Positions 27,248 to 62,396 of a stretch of DNA of 64,000 bases are shown in pieces. The notes beneath the pieces are model-generated. The model did not search any database. It saw only the letters and a program-made list of their open reading frames with translations, and was not told the DNA's origin. The stretch spans positions 1 through 64,000 of the forward strand of contig JAFWBQ010000121.1 of the NCBI GenBank assembly GCA_017507125.1. The letters are read 5' to 3'. Positions within the stretch are counted from its first letter, which is position 1. Each line of letters begins with the position of its first letter. Position numbers and translations under genes: made by a program. The stretch is from Lentisphaeria bacterium. Its GTDB lineage: Bacteria > Verrucomicrobiota > Lentisphaeria > Victivallales > Victivallaceae.

Positions 27248-28924
27248 TTATTTCAAACGTTCCAATACATACTGAACCGCTGATTGTTTTTCTGCGCCGG
27301 GAGGAGTCGTTGCGGCGATGATCTCCATAGCTTCAAAGAGCTTTTCGCAACTTTCCTCATAACTCAACTTGCCGATTTCAGCCACCAGCCGGGCGCCTCT
27401 GTCCATAAGTTTTTTATTGGTGCAGTCCACCCAGCTCATCCAGTTGCCGGTGACTCTGCCCATGACCACCATGGTTCCGGTGGAAATGTTGTTGAGAACC
27501 AGTTTGACCGCCATGTGACGGATAAGACGCAAAGGCGTGTCGGGAATGGTGCATTTGATGGTGAAATCCCCTTGACCGCATCCGATGAATACTCTTTTGC
27601 CGGCAGAAAATTTTCCGGCGTAGAGTTCAAAGGCTCTCTCCAGTTCCTCTCTGTTGCAGGCGACTCCCGTTTCAACGAGCACTGCGGCATCGTTTCCGGT
27701 TGCGTAGCGCTCCGGAGAGTCCTCATTGCCGACAGCGATCTTGAGAAGATTGGCACTGCTGATTTTGGGAGGATTGTTTTGGATCTTTTCTGCGGCCCCC
27801 AATCTTATGTAATCCTCTTTTGTCCACTCAAGGCAGCGCAGGGGACGGCGCATGTTCCGTTCCCATACTGTCCGGGTATCGAAAAGGGGATTTTTTACAA
27901 ACGCCCAGGGAATGGGGGAGGTCGTATCATCTGCAGGACGGAAGGGGGGCAGCATGAAGGTGGGGGAGCGTTCCGTTGTATCGGTGAAGATATCCAGCAG
28001 ACAGTCATCGGCACAATAAGTGATGCGACCGTGTTTTTTGTAGACCGATGCTTCAAAGTCGATGTATTCAGCCATTGCTTTGCGGGAGTCCGGTGATTCA
28101 AGTTCATCAAGAAGTCTTGCAAAGTCAGCGGCAATGTCAGGCATGGAAGTTCCCATAAGTTCGGAAGCCATATATTCCAGGGCGGCTCCTGCAATCAGCT
28201 GTTCGGAACTTGTCGCCTGCATACGGGTGGAACCGGCAAGTCCCATGGGACCGCAGTGAAGATCAAGGACCGTCACCCGGGGATCATTGATGGCGCGGGC
28301 GGAGCGTTCAATGTGTGCCGCCAGCAGATCAGCCGGATTGTTGAAAAGCAGAAATCCTTTTGCCCCCCGGTTGACTGCCTCTTCGAGGGTTCCGAGGACG
28401 GAGGAGGTTTCCCCCCCTTCTGTAATGGCAACGAGCATATCATCCCTGCCGATATTGAGCATACGCAGTTGTTCGCGTCCGAATTCCAGATAGTCCTCAA
28501 AAAATTCGACAGAACGGACAAGGGCAAAGTCTCCGCCTGTCATAATGCTGAAAACCTGATCTGCATATTGGTTGAGAGCTGTATATTTTTCGGCCGTTTC
28601 CCGCCACATGCCTTCCAGTAGAATACTCAATCTGCCTGTTGCCCCGCAGCCTGAAAAGACGATTTTTTTGCCTTTTTTCAAAGTTTCCACTCCCTCTGTG
28701 CAAAGTTTTGCAAACTCAGGAGAGGGGAGGATCTTTCGGGCCATTTCAAGCACGTTGCGGTCAACCAGCTGAAGATTGGCGATGCCGTCTACTGTGGAAC
28801 GGGCAAACTCTTTGTCCAGATTCCGGGTGAGGGGACTGGATTGCTCTGTGGGAAGAAAACCCAGATGAAATTGGGTCTCGTTGGCGATAAAGTCCCGCGC
28901 CCTGGCAAGGGATGAATCACTCAT
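27248..28924 (-). CDS. Double SIS-domain protein, MurQ / glucokinase-regulator (GKRP)-like
   Basis: 558 residues, nearly twice the ~300 of a MurNAc-6-phosphate etherase. The first SIS domain has the sugar-phosphate loop SGCGATGRLS at 91-100 followed by a Glu in LLEGMWRE, and then AITEGGETSSVLG. The C-terminal third has MAVKLVLNNISTGTMVVMG and NWMSWVDCTNKKLMDRGARL, strongly reminiscent of the MurQ C-terminal end. The stretch between (about 250-430) is extra and probably contributes a second SIS-like lobe, as in GKRP. Either MurNAc-6-P etherase activity or sugar-phosphate sensing is possible. AAAGGAG lies 9 nt before the ATG. Its leader contains the mobile-element copy 28962-29159. Confidence 0.75.
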   Translation of the reverse strand: MSDSSLARARDFIANETQFHLGFLPTEQSSPLTRNLDKEFARSTVDGIANLQLVDRNVLEMARKILPSPEFAKLCTEGVETLKKGKKIVFSGCGATGRLSILLEGMWRETAEKYTALNQYADQVFSIMTGGDFALVRSVEFFEDYLEFGREQLRMLNIGRDDMLVAITEGGETSSVLGTLEEAVNRGAKGFLLFNNPADLLAAHIERSARAINDPRVTVLDLHCGPMGLAGSTRMQATSSEQLIAGAALEYMASELMGTSMPDIAADFARLLDELESPDSRKAMAEYIDFEASVYKKHGRITYCADDCLLDIFTDTTERSPTFMLPPFRPADDTTSPIPWAFVKNPLFDTRTVWERNMRRPLRCLEWTKEDYIRLGAAEKIQNNPPKISSANLLKIAVGNEDSPERYATGNDAAVLVETGVACNREELERAFELYAGKFSAGKRVFIGCGQGDFTIKCTIPDTPLRLIRHMAVKLVLNNISTGTMVVMGRVTGNWMSWVDCTNKKLMDRGARLVAEIGKLSYEESCEKLFEAMEIIAATTPPGAEKQSAVQYVLERLK

Positions 28925-28961
28925 GATGATATGCTCCTTTGAAATTAGTCTTTATTCTGAG

Positions 28962-29159
28962 GAGGCAATTTCAAAACTCCTCAAAATTGTCAAAGCGCCC
29001 TCGCTTCGATCTGATAAAGGGAGCGTTTTTCCGCCTTCGCATAAAGCTACGGCGGGACAAGCGCCTGTTACCTTGCAGGCAGCAGCCTTCAAACTACCCT
29101 TTACAGCTCTTTGCGAATGACATCTTTGCCATTTTTTGAATGACTTTTGAAATTACCTC
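28962..29159. mobile_element. MITE-like element, copy 1
   Basis: A 198-bp non-coding sequence with terminal inverted repeats: the left end GAGGCAATTTCAAAA matches the inverse of the right end TTTTGAAATTACCTC at 14 of 15 positions, and weaker inverse similarity extends to about 36 bp. It is flanked by direct repeats TCTGAG (28956-28961 and 29158-29163). The first TC on the right also belongs to the inverted repeat, so the true duplication may be shorter (TGAG). Compared with copy 2 (60195-60391) it differs by two substitutions and one single-base indel. No transposase is encoded. It fills most of the 392-bp gap between two divergent genes. Confidence 0.85.
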
Positions 29160-29166
29160 TGAGGTT

Positions 29167-29316: not shown

Positions 29317-30090
29317 ATGAAAGAAATAATACCCTTGATTTGTGAAACGGCAAAAGCTGCCGGTAAGATCGCTCTTGAACGGCGGAAAAACTTTGAAAAT
29401 GTCCGGATTTTTTCCAAAGAGACCCCTGCGGATCTCGTAACTGATGTGGATCGTGAAGTGGAGCGTTTCATTATTGACCGTCTGAAGCAGGCAACTCCTG
29501 AATTCGGTTTTATCGGTGAAGAGTCCGGGGTGACGGATGGAACTTCGGAATGGGCCTACTGCATAGATCCCATTGACGGGACGACCAGTTATGTGCATGG
29601 TTCACCCGTGTTCAGCGTTTCCATTGGTGTGCTGCGGGGGAGTGAGTTTTATGCAGGGGCTGTTTTTGCGCCTCAGCTGAATGAGCTTTATTATGCAGAA
29701 AAAGGGAAGGGCGCCTTTTTGAACGGAGTTCCCATCCACGCATCAACGTGTCAGACATTGGGCGAAGCACTTTGCTCAACGGGTTTTGCCTGTATCCGTG
29801 CCCGAAAAGAAAAGAATAATCTTGAATATTTCGCAAAAATCGTCCCGCAGCTTCAGGAGATCCGGCGGACAGGCTCAGCCGCATTCGATATCTGTCAGGT
29901 GGCAGCCGGACGCTTTGACGGCTATTGGGAGTTTTATCTGCATCAGTATGATATCGCAGCCGGTGCCGTTATCGCCATGGAAGCCGGGGCGCTTTTTACG
30001 GATATCGACGGAGGAAAAGAGTATCTCGAAAAGGGGCTCGTCTGTGCCGCTCCCGGAGTACATCCGCTGCTCTGTCATGAACTTCATTGA
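29317..30090 (+). CDS. suhB: Inositol-monophosphatase family phosphatase
   Basis: 257 residues, the normal length of the lithium-sensitive IMPase/SuhB family that dephosphorylates inositol-1-phosphate or related sugar phosphates with two or three Mg ions. Motifs seen are DLVTDVDREVERF, FIGEESG, the core metal site YCIDPIDGTTSYVHG, and the late loop QYDIAAGAVIAMEAGA, which replaces the family's usual W-D with Y-D. No signal peptide. Inositol phosphatase, 3'-phosphoadenosine phosphatase and fructose-bisphosphatase activities occur in this superfamily, so the symbol is tentative. It has its own promoter with a palindrome at the start site. Confidence 0.85.
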   Translation: MKEIIPLICETAKAAGKIALERRKNFENVRIFSKETPADLVTDVDREVERFIIDRLKQATPEFGFIGEESGVTDGTSEWAYCIDPIDGTTSYVHGSPVFSVSIGVLRGSEFYAGAVFAPQLNELYYAEKGKGAFLNGVPIHASTCQTLGEALCSTGFACIRARKEKNNLEYFAKIVPQLQEIRRTGSAAFDICQVAAGRFDGYWEFYLHQYDIAAGAVIAMEAGALFTDIDGGKEYLEKGLVCAAPGVHPLLCHELH

Positions 30091-58707: not shown

Positions 58708-59570
58708 AAAAAGTATCGGACCGGAGTTTTTACAAGTATTTCACGCATGTATTGCTCAAGGGTGTTTTTCAGGCGGGCATTTGAAAGTGTTTCGGTGATG
58801 TAGAACTCTGTTTCTTCAAAACTCCTGTAACTCCTGGGAGAACGGGAAAGAACCTTTACGATAAAGATCCCTGCAGGGGTTTCGACCTTATCCCAACTGC
58901 CCACCGGGAGCTCTCTGACTTTTTTGAAATAAGGACGCAGTTCCGGTTCCGGGGGCTTTTTTTCGCCCCTGCCTTCAGGGTCGTATTGTTTAGCAAGAGT
59001 ATAAAAATCCTCTCCCTGCCGCAGACGGGCAAGTATCAGGTCGGTTTGTTTTTTTCCCTCCGGGGTATTGTCTCCTCCACGGAAAAGGGCCAACTCGCTG
59101 TTTACAGGGATTTGAAACTGTTCTTTGTTCAAAAAAAAGTGACTGCGTACATCTTCGGGAGTCGGTTCAACGAGTGCAGGATCGACAGCGTAGAAGGTGA
59201 AATACAAGGCGCATTTGAGTTGAAACTCCGGACGGATGACATTCTTCTCAAGAGTTGCAACGAGAGCTTTGCCGGCAGAGGAATTGAATTTCTTTTTACG
59301 CATTTCAATGTATTTCTTTGCTGTACCGGCATCGGGAGCAATTCCGCTGCGTTCAAGAAGCTGACGGACAATGATCAAATAAACTTCTGTATCTATCAGT
59401 TTTTTCAATGCCGCTTTGCGTTCCGTCGGAGAGGATGGCAGCGCGAAAAGCTGGAAACGTTCTTTTTTCAGCTCAATGTTCCCGAAACGGGCCAAAATCT
59501 CCGGTAATTGAGACGCCCGGATCCGGAGCGGAATAAGAAACAACAGAAGAATAAGAAGCAGTTGTTTCAC
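58704..59570 (-). CDS. Exported parvulin-type peptidyl-prolyl isomerase (PpiC/SurA-like)
   Basis: 288 residues. The signal peptide is MKQLLLILLLFLIPLRIRAS. A helical SurA-N-like region follows (about 25-150: LPEILARFGNIELKKERF and LIDTEVYLIIVRQLLERSG). The PPIase-C (rotamase) domain is at about 150-260, with ARLRQGEDFYTLAKQYDPEG and PYFKKVRELPVGSWDKVETPAG-like strands, ending IFIVKVLSRS. Parvulins of this type help secreted or outer-membrane proteins fold in the periplasm. It overlaps the upstream lipoprotein by 4 bp and the convergent T2SS-operon end by 4 bp. Confidence 0.8.
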   Translation of the reverse strand: MKQLLLILLLFLIPLRIRASQLPEILARFGNIELKKERFQLFALPSSPTERKAALKKLIDTEVYLIIVRQLLERSGIAPDAGTAKKYIEMRKKKFNSSAGKALVATLEKNVIRPEFQLKCALYFTFYAVDPALVEPTPEDVRSHFFLNKEQFQIPVNSELALFRGGDNTPEGKKQTDLILARLRQGEDFYTLAKQYDPEGRGEKKPPEPELRPYFKKVRELPVGSWDKVETPAGIFIVKVLSRSPRSYRSFEETEFYITETLSNARLKNTLEQYMREILVKTPVRYFF

Positions 59571-60151
59571 TTGTCGTCAAAACTCCTGATGGGAACTTGG
59601 ACGGAAGAGGTTCTGTTTTGAACATTGTGTTTGTTCCAGCGTTCGATGCTGCGCTTGTAGTTCGTGAAAAAGAGAGTGAGTTTCGGGGACTCAAGTCCTT
59701 CAAGCCCCGCTTGGGCTGCTGCAAGGGCAGAATTCATGGCAACGGGATTGGGGGCGCTGCGCATGGCGATGAAGTGGCGTTCTGCATGGCGGAGTTTGCG
59801 GAGCTTATCCAGCTGGGTGTGCAGCTGATTGTTGTTTGGAAAACGTTGTAATCCGGATTCAAGTTCCTTTATGGAACGCTTCAGATCACCGGCATTAAGA
59901 GCTCTTTGAGCCTGACGGATATAGTTGTTTGCCTGCTGGACAGCCACAAGTCTCTGGACAAAGTAGTTCCGTTTGTCCATGGCATAGATTTTCTGCCCCT
60001 GAAGTGCGGCTGATTCACTTGAGTTGTTTCTGAGACTGCGGAAAAAACGCACGACTAAATCGTTCCGCTCCACAGGCGGGGGCGGAACTTCCGGCGAACA
60101 TCCGGTGCAGACAACCAGCAGCACAGGAAGAATATAAAGTAAATATTTCAT
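59567..60151 (-). CDS. Putative periplasmic lipoprotein, helical (TPR-like)
   Basis: 194 residues. The signal MKYLLYILPVLLVVCTGC ends in a likely lipobox, followed by a Pro-rich linker (SPEVPPPPVERND). The rest is helical, with segments such as QQANNYIRQAQRALNAGDLKR and KELESGLQRFPNNNQLHTQ that look like one or two TPR-type repeats. No specific family is recognised. It is translated together with the parvulin (ATGA overlap), so a role in envelope protein folding or secretion is reasonable. Its leader contains the mobile-element copy 60195-60391. Confidence 0.65.
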   Translation of the reverse strand: MKYLLYILPVLLVVCTGCSPEVPPPPVERNDLVVRFFRSLRNNSSESAALQGQKIYAMDKRNYFVQRLVAVQQANNYIRQAQRALNAGDLKRSIKELESGLQRFPNNNQLHTQLDKLRKLRHAERHFIAMRSAPNPVAMNSALAAAQAGLEGLESPKLTLFFTNYKRSIERWNKHNVQNRTSSVQVPIRSFDDK

Positions 60152-60194
60152 CTCTCAAATCTCATCACAATAACAGGAATAATGTTTTCTGTAT

Positions 60195-60391
60195 GAGGCA
60201 ATTTCAAAACTCCTCAAAATTGTCAAAGCGCCCTCGCTTCGATCTGATAAAGGGAGCGTTTTTCCGCCTTCGCATAAAGCTACGGCGGGACAAGCGGCTG
60301 TTACCTTGCAGGTAGCAGCCTCAAACTACCCTTTACAGCTCTTTGCGAATGACATCTTTGCCATTTTTTGAATGACTTTTGAAATTACCTC
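60195..60391. mobile_element. MITE-like element, copy 2
   Basis: A 197-bp copy of the element at 28962-29159, with two substitutions and a one-base deletion, in the same orientation. The ends are GAGGCAATTTCAAAA and TTTTGAAATTACCTC. It is flanked by TCTGTAT at 60188-60194 and 60390-60396, a 7-bp direct repeat of which the first TC on the right also belongs to the inverted repeat. No transposase. With flanks it fills most of the 394-bp gap between the divergent lipoprotein and dxs genes. Confidence 0.88.
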
Positions 60392-60396
60392 TGTAT

Positions 60397-60545: not shown

Positions 60546-62396
60546 ATGGATTTGAAAGATTTTACCGGGCACAGCCAACTTTGTGCCATGGATATGAAAG
60601 AACTTGAAGAGTTGGCTGAATTGTGCCGGGAAAATATTATCCGGAAGGTCAGCAGTAACGGAGGTCATCTTGCTTCCAATCTGGGATGTGTCGAACTGAC
60701 TATAGCTCTTCACAAGGTATTTGACCCCGCCGCAACTCCTGTGATTTTCGACGTGGGACACCAGTGCTACACCCATAAGCTGCTGACGGGGAGGTATGAA
60801 AGTTTTGAGCATCTGAGGGAAAAAGAGGGCTGTTCAGGTTTTCCGAATCCCGCAGAATCCGCTCTGGATCCGGCAGTGGGGGGGCATGCCGGGAATGCTC
60901 TTTCCATCGCGTTGGGGATCGGTGCGGCACGGGAACTGGAAAATAACTCCGGCAAAGTGATCGCAATCGTCGGTGACGGAGCCCTTGGCAACGGGATCTC
61001 CTTTGAAGCACTCAATACCGCCGGATACGGGGGAAAGAACCTTATTCTGATCCTCAATGATAATAAAATGTCCATTTCACCGGCAGTTGGAGCCGTCAGC
61101 GGCCAGCTGAGCAAAATCATTTCCGGCCGCTTTTACAACCGTACCCGGCGTTTTTTACGGCGTACCATTCTTCGTTCTCCACGGCTCTTCCGTCTGATGC
61201 GCCGGCTGGATGACTGGTTCAAGGCCGTACTGCTGCCGCCCAGTGTGATTTTTCAGTCTTTCGGATTCCGTTTTTTCGGTCCCGTGGATGGTCACTCCCT
61301 GCCGGAGTTGATCGCTATGCTTGAACGCATAAAGGAACTTGACGGTCCTTTGATCCTTCATGTGGTAACAAAGAAAGGGAAGGGGGCTCCTTATGCCGAA
61401 GAGGCCCCTGTAATATATCACGGTGTCGGAAAATTTGAACCGCAAAGCGGCCAACTTGTCGCATCTGCCGGCGGTTTTTCCGAAACTCTGGGCAGATGGA
61501 TGTGCCGCAAAGGAGAACATGATGAGAGGATCATCGGCGTCTCTGCCGCTATGATCCCCGGTGTCGGCATGACTGCTTTTGCCGCAAAGTACCCCCGCAG
61601 ATGTTTTGACGTGGGAATCGCTGAAGAACATGCTGTTGTCTTTTCCGCCGGCATGGCAGCCGGAGGGAAAAGGCCCATTTGTGCCCTTTACGCCACTTTC
61701 GCCCAGAGAGCGTTGGATTGCATCTATCATGATACTGTCCTGGGAAAAGTTCCTGTAATCTTTGTATTCGACAGGGCCGGGGCTGTCCCCGACGGTCCCA
61801 CCCATCATGGTATCTACGATCTGGGATTTTTGCGGGCACTGCCGGGACTGACGGTCATGATGCCCCGGAACTGCAGCGAATTGGAGTTGATGCTGGATTT
61901 TGCCCTGGAACTTGATGCACCCTGTGTCATACGTTATCCCCGGGGAAACAGTTGTGAAAAAACACTCCCTCCGCCGGGAGTCTTGCAGATGGGAAAAGCA
62001 GAGATATTGAGAGAATGCTCCGAAGGCCCCGTCCTGTGGGCACTGGGCGCAGAATGCGGTATCGCTGAACAGACAGCGGAACTTCTCAGACAGAGAGGGA
62101 TCAAAACGACTTTGATCAATGCCCGTTTTGCAGCTCCCTTTGACCGGGAAACTGCTTTGAGGTTTTCCAACAGACTTCAGGTGGTCATCGAAGATCACGC
62201 CGGCGGCGGTCTCGGAGGTGCCCTCAGTGAGTGTTGCGCCGCTGTTCCCGGTGGCGGGGTACTGCTCTTCAACTGGGGCAGCAGCAGTGTAGGGCACGGC
62301 AATGTTGCAGAGTTGCGCCGGGAAAGAGGACTTGACCCGGAAAGTATTGCAGGCAGGATTGCTGAACAGTACAACGCCTTTTGCAGTAAATCATAA
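60546..62396 (+). CDS. dxs: 1-deoxy-D-xylulose-5-phosphate synthase
   Basis: 616 residues, the normal length. It joins pyruvate and glyceraldehyde-3-phosphate in the first step of the non-mevalonate isoprenoid pathway. N-terminal motifs are GGHLASNLGCVELTIALHK, DVGHQCYTHKLLTGR, and the thiamine-diphosphate/Mg motif GDGALGNGISFEALN ending in NDNKMSISP. The central Glu of the cofactor aminopyrimidine is in VGIAEEHAVVFSAGMA. The transketolase-C domain has GGGLGGALSEC. The ATG at 60546 is chosen; an in-frame TTG lies 9 bp upstream. No strong ribosome-binding site is seen before either. It reads away from mobile element copy 2. Confidence 0.93.
   Translation: MDLKDFTGHSQLCAMDMKELEELAELCRENIIRKVSSNGGHLASNLGCVELTIALHKVFDPAATPVIFDVGHQCYTHKLLTGRYESFEHLREKEGCSGFPNPAESALDPAVGGHAGNALSIALGIGAARELENNSGKVIAIVGDGALGNGISFEALNTAGYGGKNLILILNDNKMSISPAVGAVSGQLSKIISGRFYNRTRRFLRRTILRSPRLFRLMRRLDDWFKAVLLPPSVIFQSFGFRFFGPVDGHSLPELIAMLERIKELDGPLILHVVTKKGKGAPYAEEAPVIYHGVGKFEPQSGQLVASAGGFSETLGRWMCRKGEHDERIIGVSAAMIPGVGMTAFAAKYPRRCFDVGIAEEHAVVFSAGMAAGGKRPICALYATFAQRALDCIYHDTVLGKVPVIFVFDRAGAVPDGPTHHGIYDLGFLRALPGLTVMMPRNCSELELMLDFALELDAPCVIRYPRGNSCEKTLPPPGVLQMGKAEILRECSEGPVLWALGAECGIAEQTAELLRQRGIKTTLINARFAAPFDRETALRFSNRLQVVIEDHAGGGLGGALSECCAAVPGGGVLLFNWGSSSVGHGNVAELRRERGLDPESIAGRIAEQYNAFCSKS

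Follow-up and report, generated by a model that had tools for sequence, protein, structure and literature searches.

Small non-autonomous transposable elements (MITEs) linked to the IS1182 family are a known basic kind, judging by the table available for Methanosarcina acetivorans, which, with ISMac2 as partner, gives IS1182-linked MITEs of 160 bp (14 copies, IR 26, DR 4) and 169 bp (7 copies; PMC3852290). The element of a Lentisphaeria gut bacterium described here resembles both in its probable IS1182-family partner and its terminal inverted repeats, their sizes lie near that of its 165-bp backbone, and 4-bp repeats as in the Lentisphaeria element are given for one of the two; however, they come from another domain of life, and nested palindromes or compensatory folding are not part of that table (PMC3852290). 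The Correia/NEMIS elements of Neisseria are likewise small non-coding palindromic MITEs. An internal segment of 50 bp sets their size and distinguishes a form of ~107 bp from one of ~155 bp, and they yield stable stem-loop transcripts. Unlike the Lentisphaeria MITE with its ladder of four sizes, they have TA termini and two sizes, and their internal segment is not described as a palindrome common to other phyla (PMC2229807). Short palindromes inside larger ones, as formed by the 31–32-bp modules of our element, are also represented by REPs inserted in palindromes of A. variabilis (GTAG-15), T. roseum (GTAG-23) and H. neapolitanus (CGTC-1); these carry GTAG or CGTC tags and the GTAG ones are linked to RAYTs (PMC3733652), whereas our searches showed no such tag on the module and no RAYT linked to it. 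Finally, IS1272 of staphylococci, a member of the IS1182 family to which palindromic DNA matters, replaces target stem-loops without duplication (PMC5678879), whereas the Lentisphaeria elements assigned to this family duplicate 4–5 bp at ordinary sites.

Less usual features of the Lentisphaeria element are a covarying hairpin backbone of constant length (165 bp), a ladder of nested modules, a 32-mer present across phyla and versions of 22–47 bp. Now that a previously unrecognised repeat has been placed in a family and given a likely mobiliser, its mobility becomes testable. The unusually clear natural series, in which a backbone with a covarying fold holds from none to three nested palindromes and minimal versions also exist, can serve to study the smallest DNA that a DDE transposase will accept, possible selection on the MITE hairpin itself and the travel of very short palindromes between phyla.

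Two inserted copies and their family

The window, by which we mean the whole stretch of 64,000 nt that was analysed, comprises C77:1-64000 of a 3.3-Mb draft genome (G000; 137 contigs, 87% complete). A preliminary description had placed sequences of 198 and 197 bp with three differences at 28962–29159 and 60195–60391, given their inverted-repeat ends as agreeing at 14 of 15 positions, and interpreted them as a small non-autonomous transposable element. Pairwise comparison reproduced all of these values, the three differing positions being two substitutions and one 1-bp gap, and GAGGCAATTTCAAAA and GAGGTAATTTCAAAA being the two ends. The element bounds were set as GAGG...CCTC, following the cognate insertion sequence, and this shortens the direct repeats previously given as TCTGAG and TCTGTAT: the repeats are real but consist of TGAG and TGTAT, while the leading TC represents the element's own last two bases. 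The features are as follows.

28962..29159, + strand: MITE copy 1, the 198-bp form with a single internal module; from family matches in the genome, comparison with copy 2 and the empty site in G027
28962..28976, + strand: left terminal inverted repeat of copy 1, GAGGCAATTTCAAAA; same ends on IS1182-family elements
29145..29159, - strand: right terminal inverted repeat of copy 1, GAGGTAATTTCAAAA (on the - strand); related ISs have exactly this sequence as their left end
28958..28961, no strand: target site duplication TGAG of copy 1, left; from flank comparison
29160..29163, no strand: target site duplication TGAG of copy 1, right; from flank comparison
29030..29061, + strand: nested 32-bp palindromic module of copy 1, TCCGCCTTCGCATAAAGCTACGGCGGGACAAG, at site A; missing from 165-bp copies, same 32-mer in other phyla
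29062..29088, + strand: apical hairpin of the conserved fold in copy 1; from compensatory pairs in the alignment
27248..28924, - strand: neighbour gene, sugar-phosphate SIS-type protein (by eye, ORF only); copy 1 begins 37 bp upstream
29317..30090, + strand: neighbour gene, inositol monophosphatase family (Pfam PF00459)
60195..60391, + strand: MITE copy 2, 197 bp long with a single internal module; from family matches, comparison with copy 1 and the empty site in G027
60195..60209, + strand: left terminal inverted repeat of copy 2; from the end-pattern search
60377..60391, - strand: right terminal inverted repeat of copy 2; from the end-pattern search
60190..60194, no strand: target site duplication TGTAT of copy 2, left; from flank comparison
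60392..60396, no strand: target site duplication TGTAT of copy 2, right; from flank comparison
60263..60294, + strand: nested 32-bp palindromic module of copy 2; from the module pattern search
59567..60151, - strand: left neighbour gene of copy 2, putative lipoprotein (by eye, ORF only)
60546..62396, + strand: neighbour gene, 1-deoxy-D-xylulose-5-phosphate (DXP) synthase (Pfam PF13292)

Exact element ends occur at four places in the window, all of them termini of the two copies, and allowing up to two mismatches yielded five matches versus a shuffle mean of 0.61. The element contains only short mechanical ORFs, the longest of which (79 aa) enters from outside. The preliminary description had also called the window free of transposases, and this holds for the few families searched, as IS1380, DDE_Tnp_1, Y1 and IS1182-type searches were all empty there. 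The two sequences are copies of a mobile MITE that does not encode an enzyme. To the earlier account we add its copy number, insertion sequence family, conserved fold, internal palindromic modules and the 4–5 bp length of its target repeats.

Searching G000 with the 198-bp sequence and reading the copies through individual loci gave at least 41 matches, a lower bound with further candidates unscored, and about 14 of these are full-length with 95–100% identity and lie at different loci. The term "two-copy" used before is therefore true only inside the window. The exact 15-bp end occurs 83 times in G000 versus 0 times for a control pattern, and 19 of 34 genomes of the genus carry exact ends, ranging from 1 to 353 (highest in G013). 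Copy number is thus highly variable among species, and sister species contain more family copies; the relatives are Lentisphaeria MAGs from the ruminant gut. After removing the element in silico, 23 of 27 delimited full-size copies lie outside any predicted ORF of at least 120 aa. In viral contigs, the exact ends gave single chance-like hits only, none of them paired. Some copies are closely spaced: three occur within ~660 bp at G000:C53:12634-13292, two of them only 4 bp apart, and G020 (L114) contains tandem copies with CTTT between them.

We delimited 63 copies in several genomes, and duplications of at least 4 bp directly flank 39 of them (27 with 4 bp, 12 with 5 bp), compared to ~1.9 expected from shuffled flanks (binomial 8e-43), and their sequences are 85% A+T. 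About a third of the copies show no clear duplication, as expected for old or recombined ones. Empty sites, which the preliminary description had proposed to look for in relatives, were found by using joined flanks as queries against G027, a genome of the same genus. It contains uninterrupted alleles for both window copies, with flanks 77% alike over ~700 bp, and for the copies at L005 and L006 (96% and 94%). The alignments for the window copies diverged near the junction, and the pre-insertion letters are clearer at L005 and L006. A further copy interrupts a transposase gene in G021. At another locus, G013:C27 (L170) compared with C14 of G000 (L008), the left flank of the insertion is 99% identical, whereas the other loci compared show ~67–86%, suggesting a recent transfer or recombination between the two species.

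Insertion sequences with the same ends

Following up isolated ends in sister species, we came to locus L409 of G029, where GAGGTAATTTCAAAAG is followed by the broken N-terminus of a transposase. Using this fragment as a query against the genus and the order, we found further decayed remnants in G008, G001 and G020, the one in G008 beginning like that of G029 with GAGGT[A/G]ATTTCAAAAG beside the transposase start, and apparently intact elements of 1364–1398 bp in other genera (G348, G070, G148, G099). These four elements start with GAGGTAATTTCAAAAG and carry TTTTGAAATTGGCTC at the far end, and in G348, G148 and G099 (1364–1397 bp) the ends read GAGGTAATTTCAAAAG...CTTTTGAAATTGGCTC or nearly so. 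A full insertion sequence with the ends of the MITE, as sought since the preliminary description, is therefore present in related genera: the ends GAGG[C/T]AATTTCAAAA are common to the MITE and to all four elements, while the sequence match between the MITE and the insertion sequences ends after ~16 bp. The duplication lengths also agree, with 4–5 bp for the MITE and 4 bp for three related insertion sequences (ACTA in G348, ATCC in G099 and AGAC at a more diverged one); the other related insertion sequences examined showed no clear duplication.

The transposase of the probable partner shares 42–44% identity, across 98% of its length, with plasmid proteins that carry an IS1182 annotation, and it contains the Pfam domains DUF772 and DDE_Tnp_1. 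Its best NCBIfam model is IS1182, at 98 bits and thus below the curated cut-off of 270. IS1182 elements from Aeromonas and Comamonas, which are more distant, likewise begin with GAG and contain a CTTGCAAAA- or CTTGCAGAA-like stretch. We infer from the shared ends that an IS1182 transposase is the acting enzyme, which makes such insertion sequences the probable mobilisers of the MITE. No IS1182-type transposase was detected in G000 (draft, 87% complete) or G013, whose assemblies break at repeats, and no intact one in the genus members searched, among them G013 despite its 353 exact ends; these absences are weak evidence, as the genus assemblies are 54–98% complete and broken at repeats. Because repeats break the assemblies of G000 and G013, the assembly may simply lack the gene, or it may have been lost or be located elsewhere.

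Other candidate partners were rejected. For IS1380 (PF13701), the only hit in the genus was weak and fell on another insertion sequence, and a DDE_Tnp_1 transposase on the same contig outside the window (C77:96748-97467) has no GAGG end nearby. The latter gene, which also matches DUF4372 in part, is the last on its contig side and has unrelated ends. The DDE_Tnp_1 insertion sequence of L406 (G017) and L137 (G021) has its own ends, CACTGCTGTCCGGTAAAA; it is decayed in both genomes, adjoins an element end in G017 and is interrupted by the MITE in G021. In G320, from a different family within the order, locus L449 has a similar MITE next to the start of an IS1182 element and a second copy inserted in the transposase; a flanking stretch is also repeated, which suggests recombination.

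A conserved hairpin with nested modules

We aligned seventeen diverged copies of 163–166 bp from eleven genomes over 169 columns, and the consensus fold is one long hairpin. Changes on both sides were observed in 11 of 41 pairs, and the 55 double-change cells exceed those of all 500 shuffles. The stem cells are paired in 97.6%, compared to 36–59% when the structure was slid along the alignment. As the consensus structure was derived from the same alignment, the covariation test is partly circular and the slid control is biased towards the structure. The 165-bp form has a folding z of -8.3 as RNA and the 198-bp form one of -5.6 as RNA and -4.0 as DNA. The compensatory changes across species suggest that the fold is selected as a single strand, either as RNA or DNA.

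MITE lengths cluster at 163–166, 196–199, 228–231 and 260–261 bp, with few others, resulting in a ladder of 165, 198, 229 and 260 bp because 31–32-bp palindromic modules occupy up to three sites. Comparing the interiors placed the insertions at site A (after CGTTTT), at site B on the opposite arm beside TCAAAC, where the module has the opposite orientation, and at site C in the apical loop, with no target duplication visible at any of them and an uncertainty of one or two bases in the exact junctions of sites A and C. All three sites are unpaired junction or loop columns of the 165-bp consensus fold. Site B is used in subfamilies of G000, G013 and G021, the module of G021 being different. The 261-bp form may refold with its modules pairing to one another, according to the predicted structure.

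The module pattern matches 19 times in G000 and 124 times in G013, and 13 of the 289 phylum genomes carry close variants, compared to 0 for the control. The exact 32-mer is also present with unrelated flanks in a Proteobacteria MAG (QIEJ01000276.1) and a Planctomycete MAG of the Sedimentisphaerales (JAFGSR010000142.1); contamination of these MAGs is possible, but the flanks are not those of the MITE. In QIEJ01000276.1 (L202), the exact module at 1379–1410 lies within another palindromic-looking repeat (by eye), GACGAAGCGATCTC...CTCGCAGTGACA. The module variants of G008 and G029 lie in repeated flanks other than the MITE; a variant TCCGCCGTCGCATAAAGCTATGGCGGGACAAG occurs inside another repeat, gttttgcgacgagtacggtgcagga...gtgtactatgtactcgactgctcc, in G008 (L073, L393, L397, L401) and G001 (L392), and G008 contains at least 13 exact module copies. 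The pattern was absent from viral contigs, and no mention of the module's letters was found in the literature. Like REPs, the module is an imperfect palindrome of 20–40 bp (here 31–32 bp) in many copies, but its ends are TCCG and ACAAG and lack a terminal GTAG or CGTC tag, and 30 Y1 loci contained no clear module apart from one weak match. Y1/RAYT proteins were therefore rejected as module mobilisers.

Mechanism and alternatives

The 198-bp sequence is very probably an IS1182-family MITE moved in trans, with a folded 165-bp backbone that hosts palindromic modules. The DDE transposase of an IS1182-type insertion sequence would recognise about 15–16 bp at each end, GAGG[C/T]AATTTCAAAA[G], and shift the MITE to A+T-rich, mostly intergenic sites, leaving a 4–5 bp target duplication behind; it would act in trans from a gene outside the G000 assembly. 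The backbone between the ends can fold end to end as a single long imperfect hairpin, with selection presumably acting on the folded strand, be it RNA or DNA; it hosts modules of 31–32 bp at up to three sites round the apical hairpin, thus giving 165, 198, 229 and 260 bp. Within this explanation, we infer the reasons for keeping the fold and the route by which the modules arrived, whereas the copies, duplications, empty sites, shared ends, modules and covariation are observed.

The strongly conserved fold with its compensatory changes, as well as the position of both window copies between divergently transcribed genes (n=2), would also fit a non-mobile sequence, either the gene of a regulatory RNA fixed in place or a non-coding gene with a structured product, that was duplicated in the genome. 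We regard this as very improbable, as the copies lie at different loci with 4–5 bp duplications, G027 has empty alleles, one copy has entered a transposase gene in G021, copy numbers vary strongly between species and an Rfam search gave no match at E<=1. The preliminary description had tied such an RNA to a lack of further copies and of empty sites together with conservation at the same loci across genera, and our results do not show this combination. That the entire element is a long palindrome, that its modules lack target duplications and that decayed Y1 genes are present in G008 and G013 might point to a REP/REPIN-like palindrome moved by a Y1 (HUH, RAYT) transposase instead of a DDE enzyme. 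HUH elements are not known to leave a target duplication, whereas the MITE duplicates 4–5 bp and has ends matching IS1182; moreover, the search of G000 found no Y1 gene and, apart from the one weak match, a fuzzy scan found no module adjoining the 30 Y1 loci, which makes this origin hardly credible.

Template-switch correction is established for quasi-palindromes and would yield paired changes during replication without any selection for a folded strand. However, opposed internal-loop columns are only 34% pairable, which is about the value of random letters, versus the 97.6% of the stem cells. The loops were thus left unpaired, which argues against a simple palindrome correction, as this should erase loops too, and we consider this origin of the compensatory changes rather unlikely. 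As for the modules, they may have spread only via recombination between MITE copies after single captures, without being mobile themselves. At the locus with the 99% identical left flank, the copy in G000 has 199 bp and contains a module while that in G013 has 165 bp and none, and neighbouring interior bases also differ, which suggests gene conversion; in addition, the listed module copies of G000 all lie within MITEs. On the other hand, differing modules occupy the same site B in the G013 and G021 subfamilies, and modules are also found by themselves or within different repeats outside the genus, family and even phylum, so that we give spread by recombination alone slightly less than an even chance. 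Only tentatively, and with clear doubt, do we propose that the module is an independent mobile unit that would insert into single-stranded palindrome loops without target duplication, cross phyla and use the MITE as a carrier, which would amount to two nested hairpin elements with two enzymes and sites set by the fold.

Minimal forms

The family also includes very short versions of 22–47 bp with little beyond the two ends, namely forms of 47, 36 and 25 bp and a 22-bp palindrome, which are flanked by the duplications TAAT, GATT, ACTTT, TTAC and ATCTT. For both the 47-bp and the 36-bp form, the duplication was seen at one of two loci, and several other versions of this size range have no clear duplication. 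The minimal forms may have transposed as such or may be deletion products of larger copies. In G012, the perfect 22-bp palindrome GAGGCAATTTTGAAATTGCCTC at L419:3029-3050 and L420:3003-3024 consists of two ends back to back, and these two copies are flanked by TTAC and ATCTT duplications.
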